Origin: Nitrincola schmidtii
GTDB lineage: Bacteria > Pseudomonadota > Gammaproteobacteria > Pseudomonadales > Balneatricaceae
NCBI RefSeq assembly: GCF_008973715.1
Contig: NZ_WBOL01000019.1
Span: forward strand, 1-44,261
Length of the DNA: 44,261 nt
Direction of reading: 5' to 3'
Shown: one piece after another, positions 28,717 to 43,068 of the stretch
Position numbering within the stretch: position 1 is the first letter of the stretch
Layout of the letters: every line of letters begins with the position of its first letter
The notes under the pieces: generated by a model
What the model was told of the DNA's origin: nothing
The model's input: the letters and a program-made list of their open reading frames with translations, nothing else
Databases searched by the model: none
Translations under genes and position numbers: made by a program

Positions 28717-28804
28717 GGTCAGGTGTCCGAGTGGTCGAAGGAGCACGCCTGGAAAGTGTGTATACGGCAACGTATCGAGGGTTCGAATCCCTCCCTGACC
28801 GCCA
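28717..28804 (+). tRNA. serX: tRNA-Ser (anticodon GGA)
   Basis: The acceptor stem GGTCAGG pairs with CCTGACC, with an encoded G-CCA end. The anticodon GGA (28751-28753) sits in the loop CTGGAAA on a stem CACGC/GTGTG. A variable arm (TATACGGCAACGTATC) marks a class II serine tRNA, and the TTCGAAT T-loop is present. It decodes UCC/UCU. Its last 14 bases are the integration core of island 1 and the gene remains complete. The symbol serX is used by analogy with the E. coli GGA gene. Confidence 0.95.
28791..28804 (+). repeat. attL core of island 1
   Basis: CTCCCTGACCGCCA at the tRNA 3' end is repeated exactly at 37850-37863. The integrase gene follows 212 bp downstream. Confidence 0.85.
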
Positions 28805-28918
28805 TCAACCATTCCAATCATGTTTTTCCCAGTCTCACAAAATTCTCAACCCCTTGTAAACACTAGGCCTCAAGCCTATATTTGATCTTATCTTATCCCA
28901 TCATTTCTTTTTAATTAC

Positions 28919-28988
28919 TGGGGCAAGACTTAGAGGAAGTGGGGCAAAGAATGGGGCATGACCCCAAAACTCTGAAATTCATGCCCCA
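28919..28988 (+). repeat. Integrase arm-type or Xis sites on the attL side
   Basis: TGGGGCAA occurs at 28919-28926 and 28940-28947, and TGGGGCAT at 28952-28959. A 10-bp inverted repeat TGGGGCATGA (28952-28961) / TCATGCCCCA (28979-28988) follows. The same octamer occurs twice at 37767-37786 near attR. Such repeats on both arms are typical binding sites of tyrosine integrases. The inverted pair lies 28 bp before the integrase start and could also be an autoregulatory operator. Confidence 0.6.
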
Positions 28989-29016
28989 CTTGTCAGATCA
29001 AGCATAGGGGAATGGC

Positions 29017-30291
29017 ATGACCGACATTACACCCAAAACCACACGCGCAAAGATCACAACTGACATTCAGTGCCGCACAGCTGCACCGGAAGCAAAGCTT
29101 TATCGTCAATTCGTGGGCGGTGGCCTATATCTAGAAGTTGCTCCATCCGGCAGCAAAATCTGGCGCATGAAATATAAGTATCTCGGCAAGGAAAAGCGTC
29201 TGACGATCGGGAGATATGGAAATGACCCTAAAACGGACGTAAGCCTGAAGGCAGCAAAGCAAGCTCGGGATGAAGCAAAGTTGTTGCTGGCGCAAGGTAT
29301 CGACCCCAGCGCACAGAAGAAAGCCAAGAAAGAAGAAAATACCGCAATCGATGAGAACACCTTCAAAGCGATAGCATTAGAGTTTTTTCAGGTTCGGATG
29401 CTGGATAAGAGCGCGACCCATCAAGAGAGAACAAAGCGCTGTTTGGAGATGTATCTATTCCCCAGGCTGGCGCATAGGCCCATCAAAGAAATTACGACTC
29501 CAGAGCTTTTGGACGTACTAAGAGACGTAGAAAAGAAAGGGATACTCGTCACTGTACAGAAAACACGCCAAGCAGCTAATCAAGTCTTTAAATACGCGAT
29601 AACGATAGGGAAGTGTGACCGTAATCCAGCCGGAGATATAGCCGGAGCGCTACTTACACCCAAGCGCGGCCACTTTGCTGCAATAACGGAACCGGATGAA
29701 CTAGGAAAGCTAATGGCAGCCATTGAAGGCCGTTCCGGTTCGTACATCGTCACCCAGGCTATGAAATGCCAAGCGCTTTGGTTATGTCGCCCTGGTGAGT
29801 TAAGACAGCTGGAATGGAGCCAGGTGAATTGGGATGAGGAACGCATTGAAATTGTTTCATCCAAAACTAACCAAGAACACATTATTCCACTCGCACAACA
29901 GTCTATTGAGATTCTTCAGCAGCTCCACAACGTGACCAGCTCAAGCCGCTATGTTTTCCCTTCTGCTCGGGGTGATAGTAGGCCAATGAGTGAGAACGCA
30001 ATCAGACAGGCGCTCCGTGATCTTGGTTACACCAACGAGCAAATGACCGCACACGGTTTTCGTGCAACAGCCAGAACCCTATTGGATGAGGTGTTGAATT
30101 ATCGCATCGAATGGATTGAGCAACAGCTGGCGCATGAAGTTCGGGACGCTAACGGCAGATCATACAACCGGACTAAACACCTTAAACAACGTCGAGAGAT
30201 GATGCAGCACTGGGCTGATTACTTGGACCAGCTACGCACACAAGCCGATGCACCAAACATTTTAACGTTTAAACGCACTAAGAAAGCATGA
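29017..30291 (+). CDS. int: P4-type tyrosine integrase
   Basis: The 424-aa protein has an N-terminal arm-binding DUF4102-type domain (YLEVAPSGSKIWRMKY, LTIGRYG), a core-binding region and a catalytic domain. The catalytic residues are visible: Arg258 (LCRPGELRQLEW), His346 and Arg349 (TAHGFRATART), His373 (QLAHEVRD) and the nucleophile Tyr383 (SYNRTKH). It integrates and, with an excisionase (perhaps AlpA), excises the island at tRNA-Ser. AGGGG lies 6 nt before the ATG. The gene reads away from attL, as is usual for this class. Confidence 0.93.
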   Translation: MTDITPKTTRAKITTDIQCRTAAPEAKLYRQFVGGGLYLEVAPSGSKIWRMKYKYLGKEKRLTIGRYGNDPKTDVSLKAAKQARDEAKLLLAQGIDPSAQKKAKKEENTAIDENTFKAIALEFFQVRMLDKSATHQERTKRCLEMYLFPRLAHRPIKEITTPELLDVLRDVEKKGILVTVQKTRQAANQVFKYAITIGKCDRNPAGDIAGALLTPKRGHFAAITEPDELGKLMAAIEGRSGSYIVTQAMKCQALWLCRPGELRQLEWSQVNWDEERIEIVSSKTNQEHIIPLAQQSIEILQQLHNVTSSSRYVFPSARGDSRPMSENAIRQALRDLGYTNEQMTAHGFRATARTLLDEVLNYRIEWIEQQLAHEVRDANGRSYNRTKHLKQRREMMQHWADYLDQLRTQADAPNILTFKRTKKA

Positions 30292-30301
30292 GGACTACAC
30301 A

Positions 30302-30604
30302 ATGACCGAGTTAAAAATTCAAGGTGGCGCAACATTTAAACAGCTTGGCCAGTTAAGCGGAAAAACGGAGCTATACCGAGTCAATGACGGAGTGAACGCA
30401 GCCGAGGCGCTGCAATACGCTGATGACCTTTTTAGCTCAATAGAACGCGCCCTTTATGATGCCTTTATGAATGACCCGTTAAAGGGTGATCCGGCAGTGC
30501 TGGCGCATCATGCCATGAAGAGCGCTAGAGCCGTTCTACATTCCGTTATAGGTACGCTAGAGGACATACAGGAACAGGCCATTAACGAAAGCGCCAGCCA
30601 TTAG
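30302..30604 (+). CDS. DUF3077-like small protein
   Basis: The 100-aa protein has the segment ELYRVNDGVNAAEALQYADDLF followed by a long helix and AHHAMKSARAVLHS, which resembles DUF3077 proteins (LF-V--GV---ALE-AS pattern) found in genomic islands. The function of that family is unknown. It starts 10 bp after the integrase stop with GAGG upstream, so it is probably co-transcribed with int. No membrane segment or signal peptide is seen. Confidence 0.65.
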   Translation: MTELKIQGGATFKQLGQLSGKTELYRVNDGVNAAEALQYADDLFSSIERALYDAFMNDPLKGDPAVLAHHAMKSARAVLHSVIGTLEDIQEQAINESASH

Positions 30605-30620
30605 AGAGGGGTTACAGGCC

Positions 30621-30866
30621 ATGACCATAAAGACCCTAGTAGCTTACAAGCGTAGAGGCGCAATAGAGAGCCTACCACCTGAACAGGCTAAAGAACTGGT
30701 GAACCAGCTTCACGAAAAAGGCTATCAGGAGCGCACAGGCGAATTTGAAAAGCTGATACCCATCTTAGAAAGAAACGAATACACAACCACCACGGTAAAC
30801 CTTAAAGATGAGGCACAACAACAGCTATTTAGGCGGGTTATCTCGACCTATGGCGTATTTTGTTGA
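30621..30866 (+). CDS. Small island protein, paralogue A
   Basis: The 81-aa soluble protein is not a family I recognise. It aligns over its full length with the next gene product (30901-31143): shared blocks are ARG/RRG-x-ES at about 12-17, PE at 20-21, TGEFE-LI at 39-46 and a GV-aromatic-C terminus. The C-terminal Cys follows GVF here and GVY there. The pair looks like a local duplication that has diverged strongly. GAGAGGGG lies about 9 nt upstream of the ATG. Co-transcribed with the DUF3077-like gene (16-bp gap). Confidence 0.6.
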   Translation: MTIKTLVAYKRRGAIESLPPEQAKELVNQLHEKGYQERTGEFEKLIPILERNEYTTTTVNLKDEAQQQLFRRVISTYGVFC

Positions 30867-30900
30867 CCACTCAAACAACCACAGCACAGGAAACCGCAAC

Positions 30901-31143
30901 ATGAAACACATCACATTGATAGCAACTAAGGCGCGAGGCGTTGAAAGCATCCAGCCGGAACACATAGAGGCCGCTTTATCCTTGCTAGAGGATAGAGGAC
31001 TAACACGGGTTACAGGGGAGTTTGAAAGCCTCATCGATGACCTGAGCGCCACACAATACAGCGTTATTGATCTTGATCTAACCAATGAAACGCACAAGGC
31101 GCGATATGACGACATTCTGAAGGCGCACGGGGTTTACTGCTAA
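30901..31143 (+). CDS. Small island protein, paralogue B
   Basis: The 80-aa product starts MKHITLIATKARG and ends HGVYC. The frame is open back to 30808, but that part overlaps paralogue A, and the ATG at 30901 has CAGGA 9 nt upstream and aligns with the start of paralogue A. The pair has about 30% identity with conserved TGEFE and GV[FY]C blocks. Unknown function; the conserved C-terminal cysteine suggests metal or thiol chemistry or a partner-binding tail, but this is only a guess. Confidence 0.6.
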   Translation: MKHITLIATKARGVESIQPEHIEAALSLLEDRGLTRVTGEFESLIDDLSATQYSVIDLDLTNETHKARYDDILKAHGVYC

Positions 31144-31283
31144 CAAGCAAGCCTGAAGCATAGCGCCAGCATTAAAGGCGCATAACTGGCTTATAACAGG
31201 CTCATACATGAATTAGACGAGTATCAGCCAACGGCAGACACCCCCACAGCAACGACACAGCCAATAGAACAGGAAACTAGACC

Positions 31284-31505
31284 ATGACCACACAGACCAC
31301 AGCAACCAGCCAAACAAATGACCTTGATTCGACATTAGAGCGCATCGAAGCAATAGCCGATCACGGGCAAGCGCTGGCGCTTTGCATGGTGGCAAATGAC
31401 CACTTTAAAGACATTAGACCGGATTACCTAGCCGCTATGCTGGATGATCTTCAAAACAAGTTTAAATCAATTAAAGGAGAACTTGAAAAACTCCATCATG
31501 CTTAA
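31284..31505 (+). CDS. Hypothetical small protein
   Basis: The 73-aa soluble, mostly helical protein is not recognised. It has a Thr-rich N-terminus and a helical C-terminus (LAAMLDDLQNKFKSIKGELEKL) that could form a coiled coil. AGGA lies 8 nt before the ATG. It follows paralogue B by 140 bp that contains no ORF but one GCGCCAGC motif. It is the last gene before the SOS-type promoter at 31674. Confidence 0.5.
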   Translation: MTTQTTATSQTNDLDSTLERIEAIADHGQALALCMVANDHFKDIRPDYLAAMLDDLQNKFKSIKGELEKLHHA

Positions 31506-31673
31506 AAAAATAAGTCGATCTTTAGATTGTGAGCAGCCAGGCTAATGGAATAATTTAATCTGGTTGTTTTATTCATCATATTATCAGACAAGTTTGGAAT
31601 ACTATTTATTGAACTGTTTGCTGGTACTGGTGGTTTAGTAATGAATAAGATCTGTAAATGACTTCATAGCAGT
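31506..31673. other. A/T-rich intergenic stretch
   Basis: No ORF, clear hairpin or repeat was seen before the promoter at 31674. It separates the integrase-proximal group from the replication operon. Confidence 0.5.
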
Positions 31674-31726
31674 TTGACAAGCAAGATTATTTGATTATAC
31701 TTAGGTATATCTGTGTAAATGTACAG
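31674..31726 (+). promoter_or_regulatory. Sigma-70 promoter with LexA box, replication operon
   Basis: TTGACA (31674-31679) and TATACT (31696-31701) are 16 bp apart, close to consensus. Immediately downstream, where transcription should begin, lies CTGTGTAAATGTACAG (31711-31726), which fits the LexA core CTGT-N8-ACAG. The first gene starts at 31738. This should keep the replication operon off until DNA damage. Confidence 0.7.
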
Positions 31727-31737
31727 GGTTATCATAA

Positions 31738-32187
31738 ATGAAAACCAGTTGTCTTAAAGATCTTCTAAAGTTAACGATTTCACTTTATTCGCTTAATAAA
31801 GCGATTGGTGAGCGCGTGCTGGATGATTACGAGTTAGACAGCTTAGTAGAGGAAGATAAAAACGAGCTTATTGTTACCAGAGTAATAATTAACGAGCTCA
31901 AATCAGCTGTTGAAATGGACATTGAAGCCGTTCATTCTAAAATGAAGCTTTACTGTATACAGCTAATTAATGCTTTAACACATAAAGCAGTACGAGAGGG
32001 CAAAGAGCAGTATTGTTACAGGTCTATTAATCCGGTTTACATGCTGATTAGCCTTATTATTCAGCAAATACTAGAACAGAACAGAGCAACTAAAGAGAAA
32101 CTTCCTGATACCGTTATTGAGCGCCCACCGCTGGCGCTTGGTTATGATATAAACACCCCACCAGCAGCACCCCCTATTTCAATCTAA
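31738..32187 (+). CDS. Hypothetical helical protein, first gene of the SOS-boxed operon
   Basis: The 149-aa protein is not recognised. It is predicted mostly helical (SLYSLNKAIGERVLDDYELDSL, then IIQQILEQNRATKEK) with a proline-rich C-terminus (TPPAAPPISI). No membrane segment is convincing. It sits 12 bp after a near-perfect LexA-type box and 44 bp before the alpA start, so it is probably the leading gene of the replication unit. A regulatory or helicase-loading role would fit the place but has no sequence support. Confidence 0.55.
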   Translation: MKTSCLKDLLKLTISLYSLNKAIGERVLDDYELDSLVEEDKNELIVTRVIINELKSAVEMDIEAVHSKMKLYCIQLINALTHKAVREGKEQYCYRSINPVYMLISLIIQQILEQNRATKEKLPDTVIERPPLALGYDINTPPAAPPISI

Positions 32188-32231
32188 TACGAAATTATTT
32201 TTTTCTAATTAGATTTTTATAGGTGTATCCC

Positions 32232-32549
32232 ATGAGTAATACATTATTACGACGTCATGCTGTCGAGGCAGAGATAGGCTTTTCTCGTTCAACAATCTAT
32301 CGATTAATGGATAAGGGAGAGTTCCCTAAACCGATCAGACTCACCAGCGGCAGCGCCAGCGGCAAAGGTGGTTCCGTTGCGTGGCTGAAATCAGACATAG
32401 AAAAATGGAAGGAAGATCGGATTGCTGAAAGTAAAAAAGATGCTGACTACTTGAGCAAAGTTCACATTATCGAAAGTCAAAAGGACGCTGACCGCATGAA
32501 TACAGCTCGCATTGCTGAAAGTCATAGTGCTTTTGGGGGTGATGTATGA
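32232..32549 (+). CDS. alpA: AlpA-family regulator/excisionase
   Basis: The protein has the AlpA winged-helix pattern: LLRRHAVEAEIGFSRSTIYRLMDKGEFPKPIRL (in short: GFSRSTIYRLM, GEFPKPIRL) and SVAWLKSDIEKW. AlpA proteins activate or act as excisionases for P4-like islands. After the domain the tail repeats the pattern RIAES-KDAD about three times (residues about 58-98), an unusual low-complexity extension. The frame is open to a GTG at 32223, but the ATG at 32232 has AGG about 8 nt upstream. Overlaps the next gene by 4 bp. Confidence 0.85.
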   Translation: MSNTLLRRHAVEAEIGFSRSTIYRLMDKGEFPKPIRLTSGSASGKGGSVAWLKSDIEKWKEDRIAESKKDADYLSKVHIIESQKDADRMNTARIAESHSAFGGDV

Positions 32550-32905
32550 GCAGGAAGGACGCCCCCGAAGGGGCCAGACTTGAGCAGTCAAATAAGATTC
32601 TAACTAATTCAGGCCGCAAACCCAAGCATAAAACAAAGCCAGAGATGGCGCTGGAAATGCTTCTAAATGCTGGTCAGCAGGGAGTCGTCAAGTTTGATAC
32701 TTGGGACCAGTATAATGACACATGCTTAAACAGCACCATCTCACAACTTAAGCGAAAGCATGGTATTGAGTTCATCAAAGAGAACGTGAGCCATACCCAT
32801 GCAAATGACGGTCCTACGTGGTTCAGACGATACAGCATTGACCCTAATTATCTTAATCATGCAAAACAGGTACTCAAGCAGCTGAGAGAGGCCAGAGAGC
32901 AATGA
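32546..32905 (+). CDS. Winged-helix-like hypothetical protein of the replication operon
   Basis: The 119-aa basic protein has a lysine-rich N-terminus (GRKPKHKTKP) and a middle that reads like the winged-helix proteins often found beside phage replication genes: ALEMLLNAG, TCLNSTISQLKRKHGIEF, WFRRYSID. It may bind DNA at the origin or a promoter. ATGA overlaps with alpA upstream and with the CHC2 gene downstream indicate tight translational coupling. No enzyme motif is seen. Confidence 0.6.
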   Translation: MSRKDAPEGARLEQSNKILTNSGRKPKHKTKPEMALEMLLNAGQQGVVKFDTWDQYNDTCLNSTISQLKRKHGIEFIKENVSHTHANDGPTWFRRYSIDPNYLNHAKQVLKQLREAREQ

Positions 32906-33318
32906 TTAGTCCAGATGACCTATTAAGTCGTCTGGATAAGGTGAGAAAAGGGCAAACAGGCCAATGGATGGCTTGTTGTCCTGCTCATCAAGATCGGACG
33001 CCTTCACTTAAAATTTCGCAACGCGCAGACGGGAAGCTTTCACTTCATTGCTTTGCTGGATGCCACATAAATGACATTTGTGAAGCTATCGGAATTAGAG
33101 TTGTTGATTTATACCCGAATACACCCAAGCAGCCTGGCGAAGTATTACCAGAATGGAAACGACATAAGTTAAGGAAAGCACTGTTTGATGCTCAGTTATA
33201 TGTTGAGCTTGCCCGATCTGACCTAGCCAAAGGGCGCAATGTAACATCGTCTGAAGCTGAAAAGGTACTCAAGGCGAATGAGTGCATTGGACGCATCGAG
33301 GGGGTGTTACATGACTGA
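32902..33318 (+). CDS. Stand-alone CHC2-type primase zinc finger
   Basis: The 138-aa protein carries a primase-type zinc ribbon: Cys26 and His29 (CCPAHQDRTPSL), then Cys50 and Cys55 (LHCFAGCHINDIC). In DnaG-like primases this module reads the template. Here no TOPRIM or archaeo-eukaryotic-type primase catalytic domain follows; the remaining 80 residues are helical. It is overlapped by the RepA-like helicase gene downstream. It may be a truncated primase, or may recruit the host primase to the element's origin. Confidence 0.75.
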   Translation: MISPDDLLSRLDKVRKGQTGQWMACCPAHQDRTPSLKISQRADGKLSLHCFAGCHINDICEAIGIRVVDLYPNTPKQPGEVLPEWKRHKLRKALFDAQLYVELARSDLAKGRNVTSSEAEKVLKANECIGRIEGVLHD

Positions 33319-34399
33319 TCTATCAGACTTTGATGCTATCACTAAAGACTTGGAAAAAATTGAAGCGTTACAGGGAAAGCGCTGTTTTCCGGTCATGTGT
33401 GGCTGGCAGGGATACGACAAGCCACAGCGCTGGCTCATCAAAGGGGTATTACCTGAAAACTCACTAGCGGCAATCTATGGCGCTTCAGGATCATTCAAAA
33501 GTTTCCTAGCGATTAGTATGAGCGCACACATTGCAACGGGCAAAACATGGGATGGACGAAAGACTGCTAAGGGTGTTGTGTTGTATGTCGTTGGTGAGGG
33601 TGGCGTGGGTGTTCCGCAGCGGATCAAAGCCTGGGCGCTTAAGCATAATGACGACACGGACCCAAAGCTGCTATTCAGAATAGATCATCCTGTATTTCCG
33701 GCCGATCCTGCACAGGTGGCAATGCTGAAAGCTACGTGCGAGCAGTTAGCCAGGGAAACCGGAGAGCCGATTAAGTTGATCGTATTCGATACGCTGGCGC
33801 GTTGTTATGGTGGAGCCGACGAGAATTCAGCCAAAGACATGGGCGCGTTCATTCGTGGCTGTGATGATGTTAAGGCCCACACTGGCGCGACAGTTTTACT
33901 TATCCATCATTCAGGCAAGAACGAGGAAGCTGGCGCGAGGGGTTCAAGTGCGTTACGAGGTGCGCTGGATGCTGAACTATTGGTTAAGCGTGAGCAAGGA
34001 ACCAAAGCTTTAAACGTGCTTTGCACCAAACAGAAAGACTCTGAACCATTCCAAGAGGTGGCTTTTGATCTTCAGCCTAGACAAGTTCTAATTGATGAGG
34101 ATGGAGACCCCGTTTACTCCCTAATCCTTATGGATGAGAGCAGAACCCCGTCACCAGAAAGGCCGGACGGGAAAGCATTGAGTTCTAATCAGCAGTCTAT
34201 TTACCAGGCAGTAAGAAGCCGAATGGCAAGACAGGAGCCCACCAGCAAGGAAGTAATTCGCGACGACTTCAAAGCTCAGGGATTAGATATTAAGAATTTC
34301 TCTAGAACATTAACTCAATTGCTGGAAAGAGGTGTTCTGGTGGAGATTGACGGAAAATTATTAACCAATATTAAAAGCGAGGAAGAAAGTGAGGAATAA
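33311..34399 (+). CDS. repA: RepA-like replicative helicase (AAA/RecA fold)
   Basis: The 362-aa protein has Walker A GASGSFKS (57-64), Walker B LIVFDT (about 155-161), VLLIHHSGK and SSALRGALDAEL, the pattern of RSF1010 RepA-type hexameric helicases. The C-terminal 80 residues look like a winged helix (SKEVIRDDFKAQ, RTLTQLLERGVL). The frame is open to 33278, but the ATG at 33311 overlaps the previous stop and has GAGGGGG 6-7 nt upstream. The iteron cluster begins inside its last codons and continues downstream, so it probably unwinds from that origin. Confidence 0.85.
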   Translation: MTDLSDFDAITKDLEKIEALQGKRCFPVMCGWQGYDKPQRWLIKGVLPENSLAAIYGASGSFKSFLAISMSAHIATGKTWDGRKTAKGVVLYVVGEGGVGVPQRIKAWALKHNDDTDPKLLFRIDHPVFPADPAQVAMLKATCEQLARETGEPIKLIVFDTLARCYGGADENSAKDMGAFIRGCDDVKAHTGATVLLIHHSGKNEEAGARGSSALRGALDAELLVKREQGTKALNVLCTKQKDSEPFQEVAFDLQPRQVLIDEDGDPVYSLILMDESRTPSPERPDGKALSSNQQSIYQAVRSRMARQEPTSKEVIRDDFKAQGLDIKNFSRTLTQLLERGVLVEIDGKLLTNIKSEEESEE

Positions 34400-34590
34400 G
34401 TGAGGAGAACAAAAACAAGGTGAGGAAAAAGGGTTAATTCCTCACTTTTTCCGCACTATACAGAAATAAGTGAGGAATTGGGCTATTTTTTGTTTGTTTT
34501 CTGTTTTATTTCATTAGGTTATATGCTCCTCACCTACCCCCTAAAAAAAAGGTGGGTGAGGAGACAAGTGAGGTGAGGAGTAAGTGAGGA
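34389..34590 (+). repeat. Iteron cluster: candidate replication origin of island 1
   Basis: GTGAGGA occurs exactly at 34389, 34400, 34420, 34470, 34556, 34573 and 34584 on the plus strand, and at 34439-34445 and 34527-34533 on the minus strand. A GTGAGGT variant lies at 34568. Many copies read AAGTGAGGAA. Between the copies at 34470 and 34527 is a T-rich stretch (34485-34515) suited to melting. Placement directly behind the helicase gene is typical of plasmid and satellite origins. Confidence 0.75.
34526..34563 (+). repeat. 13-bp inverted repeat inside the iteron cluster
   Basis: CTCCTCACCTACC (34526-34538) pairs with GGTGGGTGAGGAG (34551-34563), 12 of 13 plus one G-T, across a 12-nt A-rich loop. 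Both arms contain an iteron. It could be an origin stem-loop, a priming site, or the repA terminator. Confidence 0.55.
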
Positions 34591-34700
34591 ATGAGTGTTT
34601 TTAGAACCCCAAAAAACTATTAATTCCTGTTTGTATCTATATTTATAAAGATCAAATAAACACACAATTATTGCGCAAAACATAGGCATTTTTATCCAAT
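34591..34700. other. A/T-rich stretch between iterons and the SOS-boxed unit
   Basis: No ORF is seen. The DNA is very A/T rich (for example around 34640-34700) and holds a TTGCGC hexamer at 34671 that could be the -35 of the next unit. It may also be part of the origin's melting region. Confidence 0.35.
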
Positions 34701-34720
34701 TACTGTATATTTAAACAGTA
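34701..34720 (+). promoter_or_regulatory. LexA box upstream of the small-protein/coiled-coil unit
   Basis: TACTGTATATTTAAACAGTA matches the E. coli SOS consensus at nearly every position (CTGT-N8-ACAG with A/T spacer). It lies 20 bp before the ATG at 34741, where it would block transcription. Confidence 0.75.
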
Positions 34721-34740
34721 TCAAGATCGGAGCCAGATTC

Positions 34741-34899
34741 ATGACGCAAAAAAGAAAAAAACCCGTAATACCTCAGCCATCACAAGCACAAGTGAATAGA
34801 GCTTACCGTTTAATTCGTAATGCTGTTGAGGCTGGTGATATTAGAGCCGCTAAAATGCTGCTAGACCTTACAAGAGGAGATGCTCATGACTGCTTATGA
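34741..34899 (+). CDS. 52-aa basic protein, SOS-boxed
   Basis: This short ORF starts MTQKRKKPVIPQPSQ and ends GDAHDCL. The N-terminus is strongly basic and proline-rich, and the rest is one or two helices (AYRLIRNAVEAGDIRAAKML). It is not recognised. Support for being real: it starts 20 bp after a near-perfect LexA box, and it overlaps the next start by 14 bp with a Shine-Dalgarno (AGAGGAG) placed inside it. No strong ribosome site of its own beyond GGAG near 34729. It may be a small DNA-binding or inhibitory peptide. Confidence 0.5.
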   Translation: MTQKRKKPVIPQPSQAQVNRAYRLIRNAVEAGDIRAAKMLLDLTRGDAHDCL

Positions 34900-35818
34900 G
34901 TCATTAATGGCTATTGCTGCAAAATATGAAAAGCTTGATGAGATAACTAGAGCATATAGGGATTTACAACCCGAGTATGACCAGAAAAAATCATTTCTAG
35001 CTAAAGCGAAGATGAATTCAGAAAATGTTAAGCTCGATTCCAATAATGAACGTCGTTTAACATTAAGCGAAAAGATTTCAGAACTCAAAAAAGCAGTTGA
35101 ATTAGCTCAGCGCGATTTTGATGAAGTTGCTTTAAGGTATAACACTTTGAGAGATCAGTCTGACAGACTCGATGAAGATATATTAAATCTAAAGTCAAAA
35201 CAGCCGGAAGTTACACTAAGTGACCTGCAAGAATTATCAAACAATAAAAAGTTATTGGATGATGAGCTAGAGACTCTTTTGCTAAAGAAGGCTGATGTTT
35301 CTCATGTTGATGTATCTGATTTAGTTGAGTCAGTGAAGAATGCTCAGGCGCTTTATAATGAAATGATCGCGCTCAAAGAAATCGGGAAAGCCTCTGCTCA
35401 GGAAGTTAAATCCGTCATGGCAGATTTAGAAAAATTTCAGGCTGAGTTAAGTAAGGCTAATGTTAAAGCAGGTGAGCTTAACGGTATTAGACGAGGCTTT
35501 GACGGTCTAGTCATAAGCAAGCAAGAAGAAATTGACCGCTTTGAATCTAAGCGCAAGGCTTTATATCTACAACACTTTGATGATCTTGATAAAAAGGCAG
35601 GTTGCAGGATCAGCAAGCTAATTGATGATATTAAAGAAGTGATGTGTGAGCTTGCTTGTCATGACTCATTACGTGCACAGTTTGGTGGAAGTATAAGACA
35701 TAATCGTGCATCCATCGATCTAGAATGTATGAATCATATCGGTATAAATCCAACTACCATAAAGCCAATAATGGATAATGAAATGCTTTTGAGAATAAAG
35801 GCAGATTCATTATTGTAA
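34886..35818 (+). CDS. Coiled-coil protein of the SOS-boxed unit
   Basis: The 310-aa protein is almost entirely helical with long coiled-coil stretches (about 10-110 and 125-230, rich in E, K and L heptads). A C-terminal part of about 75 residues (CRISKLIDDIKEVMCELACHD, GINPTTIKPIMDNEM) is probably globular. No catalytic motif, signal or membrane segment is seen. An in-frame ATG at 34880 sits directly on the AGAGGAG, while ATG 34886 is 7 nt from it, so I use the latter. It is overlapped by the 52-aa gene and shares its LexA box. Function unknown; such proteins in satellites may interfere with the host or helper phage. Confidence 0.6.
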   Translation: MTAYESLMAIAAKYEKLDEITRAYRDLQPEYDQKKSFLAKAKMNSENVKLDSNNERRLTLSEKISELKKAVELAQRDFDEVALRYNTLRDQSDRLDEDILNLKSKQPEVTLSDLQELSNNKKLLDDELETLLLKKADVSHVDVSDLVESVKNAQALYNEMIALKEIGKASAQEVKSVMADLEKFQAELSKANVKAGELNGIRRGFDGLVISKQEEIDRFESKRKALYLQHFDDLDKKAGCRISKLIDDIKEVMCELACHDSLRAQFGGSIRHNRASIDLECMNHIGINPTTIKPIMDNEMLLRIKADSLL

Positions 35819-36230
35819 TGTTTACTAGGAACGTTGATGAGCTCGGCTAAAGCTTGCCAGGGAAGGCACACCCATCCTCTAACAAATAATTCAGCTATGT
35901 ATGCACCACAAACAGGCTAAAGCTAATAAAACTAATGAATAGCAATCAATGCTAATTATCATGATTGATCTATTATCTTACATTAGAACCACGATACAGA
36001 GAGTTGCTAACGCTACTAATTACCAAGTAAGGCTTTCTGTGCGAGAACATATGAAACCCATATCCTAGAAAAGCCAAAAGGTACTTCCAACTTGGTTTTG
36101 AAAACGTGGGTAATTCGAGGCTCGGGGTTTGACAGTTTTTGTTTTTAAATCTGAGTTTGTATTGTTTGCCCCACATGGGGGCAAAATCTAAGCACTAAAG
36201 ACATATCAAACCATGAGACTGGAGATTTAG
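35819..36230. other. 412-bp gap with hairpin and weak promoter
   Basis: No convincing ORF is present. A TTGACA hexamer (36129-36134) may be the -35 of the 117-aa gene, but no good -10 follows at the right distance. A strong hairpin TTTGCCCC-acatg-GGGGCAAA lies at 36165-36185; its left arm also contains the TTGCCCCA complement of the att-arm octamer TGGGGCAA. The remainder (35819-36120) holds nothing I can interpret. Confidence 0.45.
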
Positions 36231-36584
36231 ATGCTTTCGATGTATGAACGCACACGCCAGAATGAATTATTCGTTATTGAAGTGAGATTGAACGCTGATA
36301 AGCAGACACGTGTGAGACTGGACGCATTTCAGAATGAATTGATTGATGAGTTCGGGGAGCCGCCGGAATGGTTTAATCTGGATTTCTATGTGATGGCAAG
36401 CGCACACGAGTTGTATAAGGCTAAAACACCAGATAATGAAATTACAACACGCATAATTTCAGCGTATAAAGTCATGCTCCCACTCATCAATTCATACAGG
36501 CCAACCATGCACCAACATAAAAGCCTTTTAACATCGATACGCAGCCAGCCAAATTCAGCAAAGGAAGATGATTTATTCTGGTAA
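36231..36584 (+). CDS. Hypothetical 117-aa protein
   Basis: The protein is soluble and not recognised. It has a beta-like start (LFVIEVRLNADKQTRVRLDAF), then EFGEPPEWFNLDFYVMASAHELYKAK-type helical text and a polar tail. GGAG lies 8 nt before the ATG, which supports translation. It is isolated: 412 bp of non-coding DNA precede it and the hairpin field follows. It could act on, or be expressed with, that hairpin region. Confidence 0.5.
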   Translation: MLSMYERTRQNELFVIEVRLNADKQTRVRLDAFQNELIDEFGEPPEWFNLDFYVMASAHELYKAKTPDNEITTRIISAYKVMLPLINSYRPTMHQHKSLLTSIRSQPNSAKEDDLFW

Positions 36585-36922
36585 TCGGTAATAAGCGTTA
36601 AAAGTTTGGTATGAATTCATAATTCAACACTAATTCAACACCACTAACGCGCGAGGTTCAGCAGCTCCAGCGCTGGTTAATCAACTATGAAACTTTCGTA
36701 GTGACATTAGTAGCCCAAATTAAGGCTTTTAAAATATCGACAGCGCCAGCCAATTTAATCAGGGAATTTTCTTAGTGAAGTTAGAAGCAGGAATTCCCGC
36801 TTCTAAAGCATCGATAGCAACAGCAGCTTTGAAGGGTTAGCCCAAAACTGGTTATACCCAACAGTACGCGCCTACCCTACTGAAACAAACGGAAAAGCTA
36901 AGTTATTGATTCTTTCGAGATT
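36585..36922. other. Non-coding palindrome-rich DNA, first part
   Basis: No ORF was found. It contains the perfect palindrome CCAGCGCTGG (36667-36676), a hairpin ACTATGAA-act-TTCGTAGT (36684-36702, one wobble), and a 22-bp near-palindrome at 36783-36804 whose core is GGAATTCC and arms AGAAGC/GCTTCT. A GCGCCAGC motif lies at 36743 and CCCAAAACTGG at 36841. Confidence 0.6.
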
Positions 36923-37523
36923 CACCAATGGTGGAAGCCGGAGCAATTCAACCAGCACCGCAAAAGGGTTTCCCCAAAACTGGGGAGACCTACAGCAACA
37001 CGGTAAATAGGGGTTACTCAATCTGAGGAGACGGGCAAGAGCTGGCGCTAGTGTCCGGTAATTTTAAATAAAGCGCATCCAGCTACTTAGCTACAGGCCA
37101 TAGACGAAACCACCCATAAAACGGGTAGTTTATCCGGTTGATTGCGTTGGTTGATCGAATTACCTCAAGCTGAGTAAATCTAATTCCCACCATTGGTGGA
37201 AATCTAACAAGATACCGGAATTCCGGTATCAGATCAGGTCAAGGGGTGAACGATTCGTTCATCCTCTTACGATAGATATCCGCAAAGATCGCAATTCGCT
37301 ATGATTGCCGATGCTACAATTAGAGCATCGAGGGGGCACTAAAACGCAACCCCCTTATCCTCAGCCTGAGTAAAAGCAACACCCTCAATTTGAGGAAGTT
37401 AGAAACGGTAATTCCCGCCAATGGCGGAATTTAAAAGACCCTTTACCACAGATTGTGGAAAAGCCCTCAATGGGAGATGGGAAAAACCTTTACCCTCAAT
37501 GAGGGAAAAGTCACTAATGGTGA
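36923..37523 (+). repeat. Field of short hairpins with covarying stems
   Basis: At least ten hairpins have 4-5 bp stems and a 3-nt loop: 36923 (CACC-AAT-GGTG), 37017 (CTCA-ATC), 37164 (CTCA-AGC), 37187 (CCACC-ATT), 37360 (CTCA-GCC), 37383 (CCTCA-ATT), 37415 (CCGCC-AAT), 37446 (CCACA-GAT), 37493 (CCCTC-AAT), 37511 (TCACT-AAT). Most are flanked by TTTA or TTC on the left and AAAA or GAA on the right, which pair further. Also TCCCCA-AAAC-TGGGGA (36971), a perfect 20-bp palindrome (37211-37230), TGAACGATTCGTTCA (37247), and larger stems at 37309-37330 and 37331-37355. Stems change while pairing is kept, so structure is probably what is selected. Confidence 0.7.
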
Positions 37524-37766
37524 AAGTTAAAAAAGGCTAATTCCCGTCACTGGTGCTTTTGTCCTGTAAATTATTGCTAATGAATAGCTACGACTCACAC
37601 AACCCAAACTCAGCGTAGATTCCTGCACCTGTAAAGCGCACCACTTATAACCGATTAAAGATCATGTTGACGCTGAAAGCTCATAAAAAAAGGCATTATG
37701 AATTGATCGATATAAATCACTAAAACACATGAAAAAATAACACGAACCAATGAAACATTTTAAAAG
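37524..37766. other. Non-coding end of island 1
   Basis: No ORF or clear repeat beyond a weak hairpin (CAC-tg-GTG near 37548) is seen. It is A/T rich towards attR. Confidence 0.4.
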
Positions 37767-37786
37767 TGGGGCAAAAAGTGGGGCAA
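37767..37786 (+). repeat. Integrase arm-type sites on the attR side
   Basis: TGGGGCAA is repeated at 37767-37774 and 37779-37786, 12 bp apart, about 64 bp before the attR core. The same octamer occurs on the attL side. Confidence 0.6.
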
Positions 37787-37849
37787 AATTGAAAATTACA
37801 GATTATAAAAATAAATATAATCAATTATTTAAGGTGTTTTTGTGGCGTA

Positions 37850-37863
37850 CTCCCTGACCGCCA
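37850..37863 (+). repeat. attR core of island 1, also the left edge of island 2
   Basis: CTCCCTGACCGCCA is an exact copy of the tRNA-Ser 3' end at 28791-28804. The sequence on both sides differs, so the repeat is limited to 14 bp. Confidence 0.85.
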
Positions 37864-37960: not shown

Positions 37961-40171
37961 ATGCCAACTTCGATACCACATACCTACCGAAAACCCAGCG
38001 GTATTTATTACCTTAGAGCGGTTCTTCCTAAAGAGTTTCGAGATATTTTTCCGTCCGTTGGACGAGAGATTCGTTTGTCTTTAAATACCCGTCATCATGC
38101 TGAAGCAAAGATGCGCCTATACCAATTTGTAAATAATGTCAATTTTACTATTGATTTATTTTTAACTTGTTACTATAATGCGCAGTTATGTCGATTTAGT
38201 ATATTCAAAAAAGATATATTAAACCGTTATAATATCAATTTAAATAATATAACCATATTTTCAGGAGACGAGCCATGCGACTGGCATGCCGTAACAAAGA
38301 GGGATTTTTATATGATCATGGAACAGATACGATACGTTCACCCCGATGGTAGTGTAATTTCTTTCCTTTCCAAGGATTGGGAAAACAATATCAATGGATT
38401 AAAGGCACTTCGTGAACACGAAATGGGTCTTTATCCTGTGCCTTCTTCCCTTTCATGTAAAAAAGACTCTTTTAAATTCAATGATGTAAGTTCAAATAAT
38501 GTCATTGATACCGATTTTATTGAATGTTTCCGCGATAGCTATACGCCAGATTTGCCAGATACTGTATGGGATCACATCATTAGTAAACAGCAAGAAGTAT
38601 TAAATATTGAAGAAAAACAATCGGTTAATGAAATAGGCGAAACAGATGTTCAATCTGATGAGTCGATTCCATCTGAGGTTTGCTCAGTTGAGCAAATTCC
38701 TTTAAAGGGGAAAAAAAGCATCATTCTCTCTGATGAGAAGGTTGAGACAATCAGCGATGCTCCCGTATCCGATGCTCACTTAGATGAAAACACGGATGCT
38801 GACGTGGAATATGTCGATCAACCTGAAACCGCTGAATTAACAACCCCTCTGGCAACGCCGAATTCTAACAATCCTGAAGACATGGATGGCAATACATCCA
38901 TTGGTCAGTTTGTTGAGTACTACTTTAAGCAGATGGATAAAGAAGAGTGGTATAAGGCGGGTACAAGCACTTACAACAAATATGTTGGTTATATGAAAGG
39001 CGTTGTTGAACTACTCGGTTATGATACCCCGTTACGTGAATTGCGACCCTTGAAGGTTCAACAACTCAAAAACGACCTTTTGCAATATCCCCTATATCGC
39101 CACCAAGGAAAGAGGAAGCATCGTTCATTAGCAGACCTCATGTCAGATCCCTCTGTGAAGCGGCTCGCAACGGATACCGCAACTGAATATTTTGATCGCT
39201 TCCGTGAAGTAATGAATGAAGCTTGCAACTTGGAATTGATTGGCTCAAATCCTGCTGGAAAAATGAAGATTTATAAGAAAAAAGGTAGGACAGGAACAGA
39301 GGTTGCGCAAGAGCAAGAGACTGAACGTGTATCCTTTACGAATGAAGATTTAATTGGTTTATTAAAGGGTTATGTGTTTTCTGGTGAGTACACTGGCAAT
39401 AAGCGAAATCTGACAGATGCTCACTTTTGGGGAATCTTGGTTGCCATGTACAGTGGTATGCGTATTAACGAAATATGTCAATTACATATCTCGGATATCA
39501 AGACTGATGCAGTGCATTGGCATGGTCGTGTGTTTAATTACCCTTTCATCAAAGTGGGAACCGATCATTCCAGTCAAGAGTTGAAAAATAGTAACGCCTA
39601 TCGGGATGTCCCCATTCACCAGACATTAATCGATATTGGCTTTTTAGACTGGGTTAAACGACGTCGCAGCGAAGTTGAAAATCCAGCTAAAGAAAAGCTT
39701 TTTGAAGGAGTTCGTTACGATAGTCATTCAAAATGGGGGCGTGAGCTAAGTCGTTGGTTTAATGGTGAAACAGTATCACCATCAGAGGATGAGCTAGATC
39801 AAGAGCCTGTTAAGCGTAATGGCTACAAAGATCTTTGTATTGACGAAAGTAACATTCAAGGTAAGGTCTTTCATAGCTTCCGTCACACCTTTACCGATCT
39901 AATAAGATTTGCAATGGGTCTTGATAAAGGATCAGAACCTATTTCTGCCAGCATTCTGGGACATGAGCATGATACCAGTACGGCAGGATATGGTGATGGA
40001 CACCAGATAGAGGTAAAGGCGCAAGCGATCAATCTGGTGAAATACTCCGATGAAGTTGAATCGTTAGTTCGAAGCGTTAGCTTTGAACGATTTGAGAAAC
40101 TGAAGTGGAAAATTGCAAGAAGAGATAGTTACCTCTTTATGAAGAAAAGAAGACTCCAAAAAGTTGCATGA
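37961..40171 (+). CDS. Large tyrosine recombinase
   Basis: The 736-aa protein is about twice the usual length. The N-terminal 80 residues (YYLRAVLPKEFRDIFPSVGREIRLSL) are the DUF6538-like start of some phage integrases. A long acidic, low-conservation region (about 200-310) comes next, then a core-binding domain and a catalytic domain with Arg501 (YSGMRINEICQL), His638/Arg641 (HSFRHTF), His668 (LGHEHDT) and the probable nucleophile Tyr677 (TAGYGDG). It should integrate island 2, perhaps at the same tRNA-Ser end, since it lies 98 bp from attR. It is unrelated in layout to the island 1 integrase. Confidence 0.88.
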   Translation: MPTSIPHTYRKPSGIYYLRAVLPKEFRDIFPSVGREIRLSLNTRHHAEAKMRLYQFVNNVNFTIDLFLTCYYNAQLCRFSIFKKDILNRYNINLNNITIFSGDEPCDWHAVTKRDFYMIMEQIRYVHPDGSVISFLSKDWENNINGLKALREHEMGLYPVPSSLSCKKDSFKFNDVSSNNVIDTDFIECFRDSYTPDLPDTVWDHIISKQQEVLNIEEKQSVNEIGETDVQSDESIPSEVCSVEQIPLKGKKSIILSDEKVETISDAPVSDAHLDENTDADVEYVDQPETAELTTPLATPNSNNPEDMDGNTSIGQFVEYYFKQMDKEEWYKAGTSTYNKYVGYMKGVVELLGYDTPLRELRPLKVQQLKNDLLQYPLYRHQGKRKHRSLADLMSDPSVKRLATDTATEYFDRFREVMNEACNLELIGSNPAGKMKIYKKKGRTGTEVAQEQETERVSFTNEDLIGLLKGYVFSGEYTGNKRNLTDAHFWGILVAMYSGMRINEICQLHISDIKTDAVHWHGRVFNYPFIKVGTDHSSQELKNSNAYRDVPIHQTLIDIGFLDWVKRRRSEVENPAKEKLFEGVRYDSHSKWGRELSRWFNGETVSPSEDELDQEPVKRNGYKDLCIDESNIQGKVFHSFRHTFTDLIRFAMGLDKGSEPISASILGHEHDTSTAGYGDGHQIEVKAQAINLVKYSDEVESLVRSVSFERFEKLKWKIARRDSYLFMKKRRLQKVA

Positions 40172-40189
40172 TTTGCGCTTTTGGGGGTT

Positions 40190-40276
40190 TCAAGGGGTAT
40201 CCCCTTGACCGACGTCTTCCCCATCGACCGTAGGGAAAATGGGTAAGACATAGTCGGTCACTGGGTCTTAGACCCA
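40190..40276 (+). other. Candidate oriT with large inverted repeats
   Basis: Three structures lie between the recombinase and relaxase genes. A hairpin TCAAGGGG-tat-CCCCTTGA is at 40190-40208. A long interrupted stem pairs TGACCGAC+GTCTTCCCCAT (40206-40224) with ATGGGTAAGAC (40239-40249) and GTCGGTCA (40253-40260), with 18 of 19 pairs. A hairpin TGGGTC-tta-GACCCA is at 40262-40276. MobV-type relaxases usually act at an oriT just upstream of their gene. The nick site is not recognised. Confidence 0.6.
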
Positions 40277-40330
40277 CGCTTTGAAAACAAACTAAAACAA
40301 GGACTTGAAAAATGAAAAGGATTTTTATTT

Positions 40331-41728
40331 ATGGCTGGATTTCAATTTATCCATTACGAAGCTTATGCCCGTACAGGAAATGCTAAGAAACGTAGTTTAC
40401 TTTCTATCGCTCAAGAAGCGAACCGTGATACAGGTAGCCACCCTCATGTGACTGCTCCCCAACCACCCGAATACCTGAAGGGCACTTCATTTATTGAATC
40501 GGCAGAGGCGATCATTCATGCCGCCGATAACAGCAAAGTAATCCACGGTGGCAAGAAACGAAATATCCGCAAAGATGCTAATGTCGGGATCGGCTTAATC
40601 GCAAGTCATCCAACATCGATTGAAGATATTAATTCAATGTCAGAATTGGATCGTACCCACGCCATAGACGAAATCAAACAATGGGCTGACGATACCATTA
40701 AATTTGCAGAGGCTGAATTTAATGGATTAGTTCTGGTGGCTGCCATTCATTGGGATGAGTCCCATCCTCATATTCACATTTTGATTGGTGACGTTGAACC
40801 ATCTGATGACTTTAAGATTATTCACAAGGGTGAACAAGCCCGAAAAGCGGCTCAAGGGAATGATCGGACAGCGTTAGGGAAGAAGCTTGGAAACAATGCC
40901 TACACTGCCGAAATGAGACGTTTTCAGGACAAGTATCACGACGATGTCGCAATTTTTTATGGTCAAGCTAGACTCGGACCAAAACGTAGGCGAAAGAGTC
41001 GCGCTGAGTGGAAGAAAGAGCAAGCTCAACTGGACTTACTTGCTAAATCCCTTTTAAGGGGGAAAAGTATTGACCATTTAGTTGATGAAGAGTTAGCCAA
41101 GGCGTCAGATCAGGCGCAACTGATGATCGACGCAACTCAGGAGGAAATTGATCGCCAGAAAAAGTTGACTGATAGACAAAAATCTTTAGCTGATGACCAG
41201 TTGGTTGAGGCAAGGCGCCTTAAGGAGCAAGCTGAGCTTGACGCCAGAGAAGCGGCTGATCTAAAGAAAGAAGTTGTTAAGTTAAAATCAACGCTTGATG
41301 AGCGTATCCGCCAGATGTCAAAGTACGATGGTGTATTGGGTAAATTTCTTGGGTGGCTTGGTATTACTCAACGGATAGAGAAAAAGGCTGAAGACCGACT
41401 AAATGGACAATTATCTAAGTTGCGTGACAAAGTTGATGAGCTGAGTAGACAGGTGGGTAAAGAAAAATCTATGCAACGTCAGCATCGTGTAACGGAAGAT
41501 GCTCTAAAATCGCTTCAGAGGGCACTTTCTGTTTCAGTTGATGATTACCCTCAGTTAAAAGAAAAGGGTGCTCTAGAGAAGCATTTTGAGCAAATTCAGA
41601 AAATTGTGATTAAAAACAAATCGGTTGAAGATTTCTCTGGTCAAATTGATGCATACTTTGATCAATTGACGGCTACTAGTCAGGTATTAATGGATTCATC
41701 ATTAAATGAAATTATCATTAAGCCTTGA
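40331..41728 (+). CDS. mobV: MobV/Pre-type relaxase
   Basis: The N-terminal domain carries the family histidine motif HWDESHPHIH (140-149), matching the HxDExxPHxH pattern of MobV (Pre/Mob) relaxases. These nick plasmid DNA at oriT for mobilisation by another conjugative element. The C-terminal half (about 225-440) is a long coiled coil rich in K, E, Q and R, with a short WLGI break (about 339). The 465-aa length is normal. AAGGA lies 9 nt before the ATG. No type IV secretion genes are in the window, so transfer would need a helper. Confidence 0.85.
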   Translation: MAGFQFIHYEAYARTGNAKKRSLLSIAQEANRDTGSHPHVTAPQPPEYLKGTSFIESAEAIIHAADNSKVIHGGKKRNIRKDANVGIGLIASHPTSIEDINSMSELDRTHAIDEIKQWADDTIKFAEAEFNGLVLVAAIHWDESHPHIHILIGDVEPSDDFKIIHKGEQARKAAQGNDRTALGKKLGNNAYTAEMRRFQDKYHDDVAIFYGQARLGPKRRRKSRAEWKKEQAQLDLLAKSLLRGKSIDHLVDEELAKASDQAQLMIDATQEEIDRQKKLTDRQKSLADDQLVEARRLKEQAELDAREAADLKKEVVKLKSTLDERIRQMSKYDGVLGKFLGWLGITQRIEKKAEDRLNGQLSKLRDKVDELSRQVGKEKSMQRQHRVTEDALKSLQRALSVSVDDYPQLKEKGALEKHFEQIQKIVIKNKSVEDFSGQIDAYFDQLTATSQVLMDSSLNEIIIKP

Positions 41729-41752
41729 TACTGTTTAAATGTACAGTTAATC
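41725..41752 (+). promoter_or_regulatory. Promoter with LexA-like operator for the DNA methylase
   Basis: TTGATA (41725-41730) and TTAATC (41747-41752) are exactly 16 bp apart, and the whole spacer is CTGTTTAAATGTACAG (41731-41746), a CTGT-N8-ACAG LexA-type palindrome. Binding there would block RNA polymerase. The methylase ATG is 59 bp downstream. The same half-sites could belong to another regulator. Confidence 0.6.
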
Positions 41753-41811
41753 CTTGATCTAGGGAATAAAAGCGGACATAATGTCCTCAAACAATCCCTA
41801 AGGTTAGAAAT

Positions 41812-43068
41812 ATGCATTCAACAGACACTATACACCTACTGCGTACAGCTAGAACGTTGTACACACAGAAGGAACTTGCTTCTATTCTGGATGTTGATGT
41901 TAGAACAATTAGACGTTGGGAGGTGCTAGAAAATGATCCTCCTACGTATCTTTCGGACGTAATACGTCAAAGAGTTTTACCACTCGTAGAGAAAAGTAGA
42001 ATAGATAAAAAATCATTTAAATTTATTGATTTATTTGCAGGTATTGGTGGTGTTCGCCTTGGGTTTGAAGCCTTTGGTGGACAATGTGTGTTTACAAGTG
42101 AGTGGAATAAGTTTTCCCAGCAAACCTACTTGGCTAATTTTCCTGAAACAACGAATCATACTTTCGCGGGTGATATTACATTAGTTGATGAAGGAGATGT
42201 ACCGGATCATGATGTTCTATTAGCTGGATTTCCTTGCCAGCCTTTCAGTATTGCAGGTGTTTCTAAGAAAAATGCACTGGGGAAACCACATGGTTTTGAA
42301 TGTACAACTCAAGGCACTCTTTTTTTTGATGTAGCAAGAATCATCTCAAAGAAAAGACCAAAGGCTTTCTTGTTAGAAAATGTAAAAAACCTTTTGTCAC
42401 ACGACAAAGGTAATACATTTAAAGTTATTTTACAGACACTTGTAGATGAGCTTGGATATGAGGTTCACTATAAAGTTATTGATGGTCAGCATTTTGTTCC
42501 TCAACATCGTGAACGGGTTCTTATAGTAGGATTTGATGGAAAAACTAATTTTTCATGGGACGATTTGAATCTTCCAGATAAGGGGTCGGTTGTTTTATCG
42601 ACTATTCTTCATCCACAGGATGGAACTGAGTTGGCTGAAGAGCCATATACACATGGTGATTTGGCTAATGTTAATAGCAAATATACATTGACGCCTAATT
42701 TATGGAAATATCTGCAAGAATATGCTGAAAAACATCGCAAAGCTGGAAATGGGTTTGGTTTTGGTTTGGTTGATGGTAATTCAGTTACTCGAACACTTTC
42801 AGCAAGATATTATAAAGATGGGTCTGAAATTCTGGTATCTCAGGGTGAAAATAAAAGACCTAGACGCTTGACGCCTAGAGAGTGTGCTAGATTAATGGGT
42901 TTTCCTGATTGTTATATTATTCCAGTCAGCGATACGCAAGCATATAGGCAGTTTGGAAACAGTGTAGTTATGCCAGTAATGAAAGAAGTTGCGCGTATCA
43001 TGCATCCTCATCTACAGCGACTTTCAGTCGAAGAAAAGCAGCAGCATCAGATTCCGTTAATAATCTGA
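41812..43068 (+). CDS. DNA (cytosine-5) methyltransferase, Dcm/M.EcoRII-like
   Basis: The 418-aa protein has all C5-methylase motifs: [10 protein letters not shown] (I), [11 protein letters not shown] with catalytic Cys142 (IV), LENVKNL (VI), [11 protein letters not shown] (VIII), [16 protein letters not shown] (IX) and [12 protein letters not shown] (X). The target-recognition segment ([23 protein letters not shown]) is very like that of Dcm and M.EcoRII, so C-5 methylation of CCWGG is the likely specificity. The N-terminal 60 residues hold a helix-turn-helix ([18 protein letters not shown]), which may let it control its own promoter, as M.EcoRII does. The endonuclease gene follows after 67 bp. 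Confidence 0.93.

Follow-up and report, generated by a model that had tools for sequence, protein, structure and literature searches.

The non-coding palindrome array at the end of a satellite-like island of Nitrincola schmidtii is, judged by the sequence comparisons given below, very probably the satellite's library of palindromes that originate from the Rha/Roi genes of phages. The array lies in a window of 44,261 nucleotides (contig NZ_WBOL01000019.1, the whole stretch of DNA that was analysed), and the features of the island are listed in Table 1. By its gene set (integrase, AlpA, CHC2 and AAA_25) the 9.07-kb island is a phage satellite, and like a PICI it has an integrase with flanking attachment repeats and an AlpA regulator with a primase/replication module. 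We take its AAA_25 helicase to be of the kind called RepA-type. The GTGAGGAAT repeats are likely the island's own origin, and the candidate origin (34370-34600) folds beyond shuffled sequence on both strands (z to -4.9). The TGGGGCA repeats are probable integrase arm sites; the arm sites are probably such short direct-repeat sets and not the hairpins. The genome carrying the window had no match to PF09669. A neighbouring ORF of 117 aa had, besides itself, one weak match in 390 genomes, by eye without a related island, and none in viral contigs. Directly beyond attR (37961-43068) there is an apparent second mobile element. It encodes a DUF6538 tyrosine recombinase of 736 aa and a protein that matches Mob/relaxase families weakly, and another of its products looks by eye like a DNA cytosine methyltransferase.

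Table 1. Coordinates of the island, its genes and the units of the palindrome array in the window
Feature	Position	Strand	Evidence or remark
Satellite-like island	28791..37863	+	14-nt att repeats CTCCCTGACCGCCA at both ends, tRNA-Ser(GGA)
Tyrosine integrase	29017..30291	+	Pfam Arm-DNA-bind_3, Phage_int_M, Phage_integrase
AlpA regulator	32223..32549	+	PF05930, 3.5e-13
CHC2 zinc-ribbon (primase-type) protein	32902..33318	+	PF01807, 2.7e-6
AAA_25 helicase	33278..34399	+	PF13481, 8.8e-44
GTGAGGAAT repeats downstream of helicase gene	34381..34597	+	Repeat search, sequence
Palindrome array	36780..37560 (about)	+	Sequence, stem search, folding
Unit TCACCAATGGTGG	36922..36934	+	One mismatch to phage Rha palindrome
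TCCCCAAAACTGGGGA	36971..36986	+	O-iteron-like shape; no O-iteron library match at up to one mismatch
Unit ACTCAATCTGAGG	37016..37028	+	One mismatch to Rha site of L233
Unit CCACCATTGGTGG	37187..37199	+	Identical to Rha-gene palindrome (L237, L258)
Palindrome GATACCGGAATTCCGGTATC	37211..37230	+	Similar units in L029 and L050 arrays
Palindrome TGAACGATTCGTTCA	37247..37261	+	Flanks 11/24 to Rha genes, chance level
Unit CCTCAATTTGAGG	37383..37395	+	Identical to Rha-gene palindrome (L203); Rha-type flanks 17/24
Unit CCGCCAATGGCGG	37415..37427	+	Identical to Rha-gene palindrome (L204); flanks 15/24
Unit CCACAGATTGTGG, Rha-type flanks (..TTTACC..GGAAAAGCCC, reads LPQIVEKP)	37446..37458	+	Flanks 16/24
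Unit CCCTCAATGAGGG, Rha-type flanks (reads LPSMREK)	37493..37505	+	Flanks 16/24; core absent from 19-word library
Unit TCACTAATGGTGA, probably decayed	37511..37523	+	4/5 pairs
Two TGGGGCA repeats	37764..37785	+	Copy also at 28937
attR core	37850..37863	+	14 nt in common with tRNA-Ser at 28791

The original prediction, made from the sequence of the window, described ten triloop hairpins whose stem bases change while pairing is kept, in a non-coding field beside attR, and the sequence agrees with this description. Within 36.9-37.5 kb there are six perfect triloop stems of at least 5 bp (37187, 37247, 37383, 37415, 37446 and 37493) and four stems of 4 bp read from the sequence (CACC-AAT-GGTG at 36923, CTCA-ATC-TGAG at 37017, CTCA-AGC-TGAG at 37164 and CTCA-GCC-TGAG at 37360), and the arms vary from hairpin to hairpin with pairing preserved. 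A seventh stem of at least 5 bp in the region 36600-37560 is at 36612, palindromes with four-nt loops are at 36971 and 37211, and the array as a whole reaches past the limits first given for it. Across the window, bins of 600 nt contain on average 0.94 triloop stems of at least 5 bp and 2.8 of at least 4 bp; the bin 37201-37800 has 5 and 9, respectively. Compared with 40 shuffles each, windows of 150 nt whose starts range from 37150 to 37450 folded beyond the controls on both strands, with z between -2.1 and -3.9 (plus) and between -2.5 and -4.7 (minus). There is no ORF of at least 60 aa between 36584 and 37961, attR is about 330 bp from the array, and the repeats in the array are diverged, none being identical direct repeats. 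The Rfam covariance models gave no match at E up to 1 in 36600-37560.

A blastn search with 36600-37800 found nothing at E 1e-5 among 50,697 phages. Searched at E 10, a stretch of 591 bases from the array of locus L107 matched 47 phage records. The best matches fall within genes annotated as antirepressor, Roi, Rha or DNA-binding protein and, in one case (E 0.01), within a replication O gene; the weakest (E 7) are in structural and terminase genes and look like chance. For the E. coli arrays, units matched 44 nt of ant of SSU5 at 90.9% identity (2e-7) and 48 nt of roi of JLK-2012 at 85.4% (3e-5). In these genes the sequence of array unit ACTTTTCCACCAATGGTGGAAAAGCCCACAG encodes ITFPPMVEKPT in the wing of a winged helix, and the "linker" ATTGTGGAAGAATCAACGGGTTAGG of the arrays is roi coding sequence with one base different. 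Phage_pRha scored above the cut-off in four of the five proteins of the matched genes, that of SSU5 being below it.

The window array was compared with 19 phage 13-mers, of which three occur in it exactly (37187, 37383 and 37415) and two with one mismatch. Twenty shuffles, which do not preserve palindromes, gave none, and positions 1-28000 of the window gave no exact match and one near match. By arithmetic, at most 38 words (both strands) stand against 65,536 possible 5-3-5 palindromes and the field holds six to seven, so that three matches are unlikely. The flanks, scored separately from the cores over 24 positions against phage Rha flanks, were identical at 14, 11, 17, 15, 16 and 16 positions in six window units (the 11 belonging to 37247), and five of the six had a null fraction of at most 0.029. 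The original prediction linked the TGAGGA motif of two arms (at 37017 and 37383) to the iterons of the island. At the 37383 unit this link is not supported, the motif being part of a Rha-type flank, TGAGGAAGTTAGAAA. Across ten arrays, at least 15 of 24 flank positions were identical in 23 of 45 units against 0.53% of other array positions, the units not being independent because several E. coli arrays have units in common. Choosing sites solely by their flanks gave 115 in the arrays, 18 of them with a fully paired core, and 285 in positions 1-28000 of the window, of which 1 had such a core; the other 97 array sites lacked full pairing, as most such picks are chance. Thus palindromes identical to Rha sites and Rha flanks at the DNA level are both found in the window array, but the protein-level search gave a different result: an HMM of the wing region at 7 bits matched three of ten arrays, all from E. 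coli, and missed the window.

Several further observations stand against the library reading, among them the lack of a PF09669 match in the genome carrying the window and, as described below, the single exact copy of the palindrome in each of three phage genomes and the missing array in RepA-type relatives. The 37446 core was found in no Rha gene (eight viral matches to CCACAGATTGTGGAAAAG or CCACARATTGTGGAAAAG, with CCACAAATTGTGG allowed, none of them in a recognisable Rha gene), and the palindromes at 36781, 36971, 37211 and 37247 had no source among the sequences compared. Of the 23 units with strong flanks, 21 lie on the strand shared within their array, a consistency that independent capture of symmetric sites would not need. 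The one-strand units suggest that arrays grow by duplication together with exchange through flanks. Measured against the satellite genes, the window units and those of L052 lie on one strand, and those of L107, L132 and L135 on the opposite one.

To investigate the palindromes in their genes, we gathered 135 loci (80 viral, 27 from family genomes, 21 from named genomes, 5 from phage records and 2 O-gene loci), from which 100 stretches were aligned. Genes of the Rha/Roi/Ant family (PF09669) have a palindrome with covarying arms in the codons of the winged-helix wing. The codons for P-x-[MI]-x-E gave 45 distinct 15-nt sites, in which all five pairs form in 20, four in 10 and three or fewer in 15; the arms include CCACC/GGTGG, CCTCA/TGAGG, CCGCC/GGCGG, CCCCC/GGGGG, CCTGC/GCAGG and CCTCC/GGAGG. 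The 20 fully paired sites compare with a mean of 1.39 under synonymous recoding (2000 runs, maximum 6) and of 3.22 after swapping of right halves (2000 runs, maximum 10), values that are not probabilities because the wing sequences are related. With a shift allowed, 43 of 63 distinct segments had a triloop stem of at least 5 bp against 3.6 after recoding (300 runs, maximum 10); the remaining 20 comprise 8 with a 4-bp stem, 6 whose stem by eye is interrupted at one mismatch and 6 with neither. A regular expression matched 22 of 85 loci with 13 distinct segments, and the palindrome was at the wing in 12 of the 13.

Each of three whole phage genomes has a single exact copy of the palindrome, and a second operator in the same phage was rejected for want of a second exact copy in any of them. 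One-mismatch arms numbered 0, 5 and 3 in these genomes, which is near chance in PAN70. In phage APSE-8 (L272, 4409), the neighbouring BRO-family gene contains the Rha palindrome with one mismatch (CCTCAAATTGAGT). In the available text of two papers, Rha is a winged-helix protein with a suggested role in the lysis-lysogeny switch (PMC8951638, PMC4936722), and according to the second of them Rha prevents phages from growing in hosts that lack IHF (PMC4936722). Binding of Rha/Roi to the wing palindrome was not reported in the literature searched. Nor did that literature, from which most subscription papers were absent, contain a description of the wing palindrome or of the arrays.

The original prediction reasoned that a protein operator would conserve its sequence, and from the changing stems it concluded that folded RNA or single-stranded DNA was under selection. 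The comparisons do not support this reasoning. The lambda O iterons and the phi80 gp15 sites are annotated protein sites, dyads inside the gene of their own initiator, with the same hairpin-like build and with arms that differ between phages, and three window palindromes recur in Rha genes with the same covariation. In the dyad of a homodimer both half-sites would change together as protein and site co-evolve, and covariation therefore does not need RNA, because such a dyad must change on both sides. By analogy with the lambda and phi80 dyads, Rha/Roi would bind the palindrome in its own wing codons. The O-type origin iterons, which lie inside the gene of the binding protein, resemble the window units in being short, small-centred dyads with phage-specific arms; they differ in that several near-identical tandem copies lie in one gene, while the window array has many different units outside genes. 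The Rha/Roi/Ant wing codons hold the same palindromes as the array, in a gene in the phage and as a non-coding copy in the satellites.

The prophages of genome G040 first suggested a library of O iterons, which in the present reading are a minor part beside the Rha/Roi palindromes. This genome has two contigs with Phage_rep_O genes, each with five iterons, of the types AGTCCCCAAACGGGGACT and TACCCGAAAACGGGTA. Among 26 viral O loci, many of them near-identical, 20 had tandem words in dyads (by eye), 2 had no tandem word, 3 had A-rich repeats only and 1 had a non-dyadic repeat. O iterons were matched in four of ten arrays and shuffled words in none: the first G040 type (AGTCCCCAAACGGGGACT) is copied in the arrays of L029, L050 and L052, and a phi80-like one in L107. 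At up to one mismatch, 56 O dyads had no match in the window, G022, L112, L132, L133 or L135. A library of O iterons was thus rejected as the whole answer, as it accounts for part of the units of four other arrays and for none in the window. At 7985-8075 of L133, a DUF927 satellite of E. coli, there is a reversed stretch outside annotated genes that by eye looks like the iterons of the lambda origin; it had no match to the O-iteron library at up to one mismatch.

Related islands, which the original prediction had named as a place to look, gave a divided result, with arrays present in other satellites and absent from RepA-type relatives. Against 116 family genomes, the window field matched itself and one further stretch of 30 nt, and following this match revealed another array built in the same way (G027:C76). 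Used as the query, the G027 array matched five of the 116 genomes (G020, G022, G024, G027 and G040). Arrays are carried by G027 (on two contigs), G024 and G022; the G040 match was rejected as an array, being the O gene of a prophage. In L052 the order is an integrase-like ORF, a Toprim primase, a DUF927 helicase, a small ORF, the array and an MmeI-type restriction gene. None of three stretches from the RepA-type relatives (L023, L025 and L026; G097, G102 and G114) had a hairpin cluster, which indicates that the array is an accessory and that the core of the satellite does without it. By eye, the arrays of L029 (6000-6450), L050 (2900-3300) and L052 (12300-12600) end with several direct-repeat sets (GTTAAC, GGAAACACC, GGTATCC, CGCAACA, TGCCCCA and GTACGCAG), like adjoining arm sites for different integrases. 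Locus L055 (5000-7150) has a long repeat array in which the palindrome GTGTCGA-TTC-TTCGACAC occurs many times, beside genes that by eye are radical-SAM-like and type III CRISPR (RAMP)-like.

A scan of viral contigs for tandem CCNCCAATGGNGG found 15, of which eight, from E. coli satellites, have a matched segment in common (L104, L106, L107, L110, L111, L112, L114 and L117) and the other seven include none that is phage-origin-like by eye. L107 has ORFs that by eye resemble a terminase, a portal, a protease, a capsid protein and a DUF927-like helicase. In E. coli, the array of the EDL933 element (L132, 8520-9206) is flanked by phoQ and by a small ORF next to terL; this element is presumably the one called EcCIEDL933, a cf-PICI. 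Its array was matched in 1289 of 5426 complete E. coli genomes, with at least 80% of the array in 107, and at E 0.01 in 4 of 72,556 plasmids and in none of 50,697 phage records. Viral contigs contained no match to either of two patterns made from array pieces, nor had the L029 array a match in the plasmids and phages. The same palindrome words recur across satellites of different hosts and replication types, whose arrays lie outside genes, close to the attachment site where the element ends, and many of the units retain traces of the coding sequence that flanks the palindrome in phages.

The EcCICFT073 array is at L135 11880-12258. About 350 bp from it, at 12605-12620, is a putative lambda-type cosN of EcCICFT073 (GGGCGGCGACCTCGCG). 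Both this element and that of EDL933 were identified by strain and gene content, and EcCICFT073 also by its published description (PMC6092414), the available text of which reports cos sites for it and an own origin with two iteron sets 3' of pri-rep. The array as the satellite's own origin was rejected for EcCICFT073 on account of this separate origin (PMC6092414).

Taken together, we propose that each palindrome would be the double-stranded DNA site of a phage's own dimeric regulator or initiator. A satellite that is excised and multiplies during infection would present many copies of sites for many phages, and by titrating Rha/Roi (and O-type) proteins the array would modulate or impede the phage, or else it would dock these proteins. 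Units would probably be gained or swapped by recombination between phage gene and array through matching flanks. For the full statement, in which a library of phage self-sites acts as decoys that titrate phage DNA-binding proteins, we put the chances at just under even. More tentatively, Rha/Roi phages may carry a hypervariable palindromic identity tag that both encodes the wing and serves as a DNA site, and the non-coding tag and O-iteron libraries in satellites of several Gammaproteobacteria may be a protein-read memory of phages, decoying or exploiting many helpers.

It is also possible, if unlikely, that the same sites recruit phage initiators and regulators to the satellite DNA, so that many helpers would support replication, excision or late functions, and the priming, packaging or second-origin roles of the original prediction are possible only as such a recruitment of helper proteins. 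O iterons are origin sites and form tandem pairs in three arrays, as docking would have it, but the window has no O-type iteron and single Rha units have no known origin role. A G114 satellite (L023, 4394-5050) has a Rha-domain gene upstream of its CHC2 and RepA genes, a position from which Rha may belong to replication and not to regulation only. The available text of PMC4936722 gives the Pseudomonas satellite AH14b a rha gene, whereas the origin of EcCICFT073 3' of pri-rep (PMC6092414) stands against docking.

We consider it quite unlikely that the array is debris, in which recombination between satellite and phage leaves rha fragments at the end of the element and the palindromes persist, functionless, by chance or by quasi-palindrome correction. 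Such correction occurs during replication. Two units look decayed (37464 with 3/5 pairs, and 37511), the orientation within arrays is consistent, as tandem duplication predicts, and the RepA relatives do without the array; yet many different palindromes are intact while long reading frames are gone, the words are held in common by satellites of different hosts and replication types, and phage genes keep the palindrome far above the synonymous expectation. A structured RNA or single-stranded DNA, with hairpins as an sRNA sponge or as priming or packaging sites, is likewise quite unlikely: the triloops, the consistent orientation and the folding on both strands fit it, but the field has no Rfam match, the same palindromes occur in phage coding sequence, the opposite unit strand in E. 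coli PICIs speaks against a single RNA of one sense, and the distance of the putative cosN of EcCICFT073 means that the array is not the packaging cut site itself.

The library of phage palindromes has partial likenesses in known systems. PICIs, capsid-forming PICIs and PICMIs resemble the island in int, alpA, primase/helicase and attachment repeats, and arrays of this kind occur in EcCICFT073 and in the element of EDL933 as well; the available texts of PMC10803314 and PMC6092414 contain no description of them. A PICMI is defined by a DUF3987/DUF5906 primase and insertion next to fis (PMC10803314, available text), while the island has CHC2 and AAA_25 only, is inserted at tRNA-Ser and is not a PICMI by this definition. 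CRISPR arrays, an analogy only, likewise collect short phage-derived pieces in one locus, but the window array has no identical direct repeats and its pieces are palindromes, not spacers. No Cas family was among the Pfam matches of the island proteins scanned.

If the proposal is true, a usually blank region of satellite maps would become a readable record of the phages met, and satellites would have a new means of hindering or exploiting many phages simultaneously. It would also mean that phage genes follow an overlooked rule, by which a binding site is placed in the codons of the regulator's own DNA-contacting wing, and that the site and the specificity of the regulator are forced to change together.
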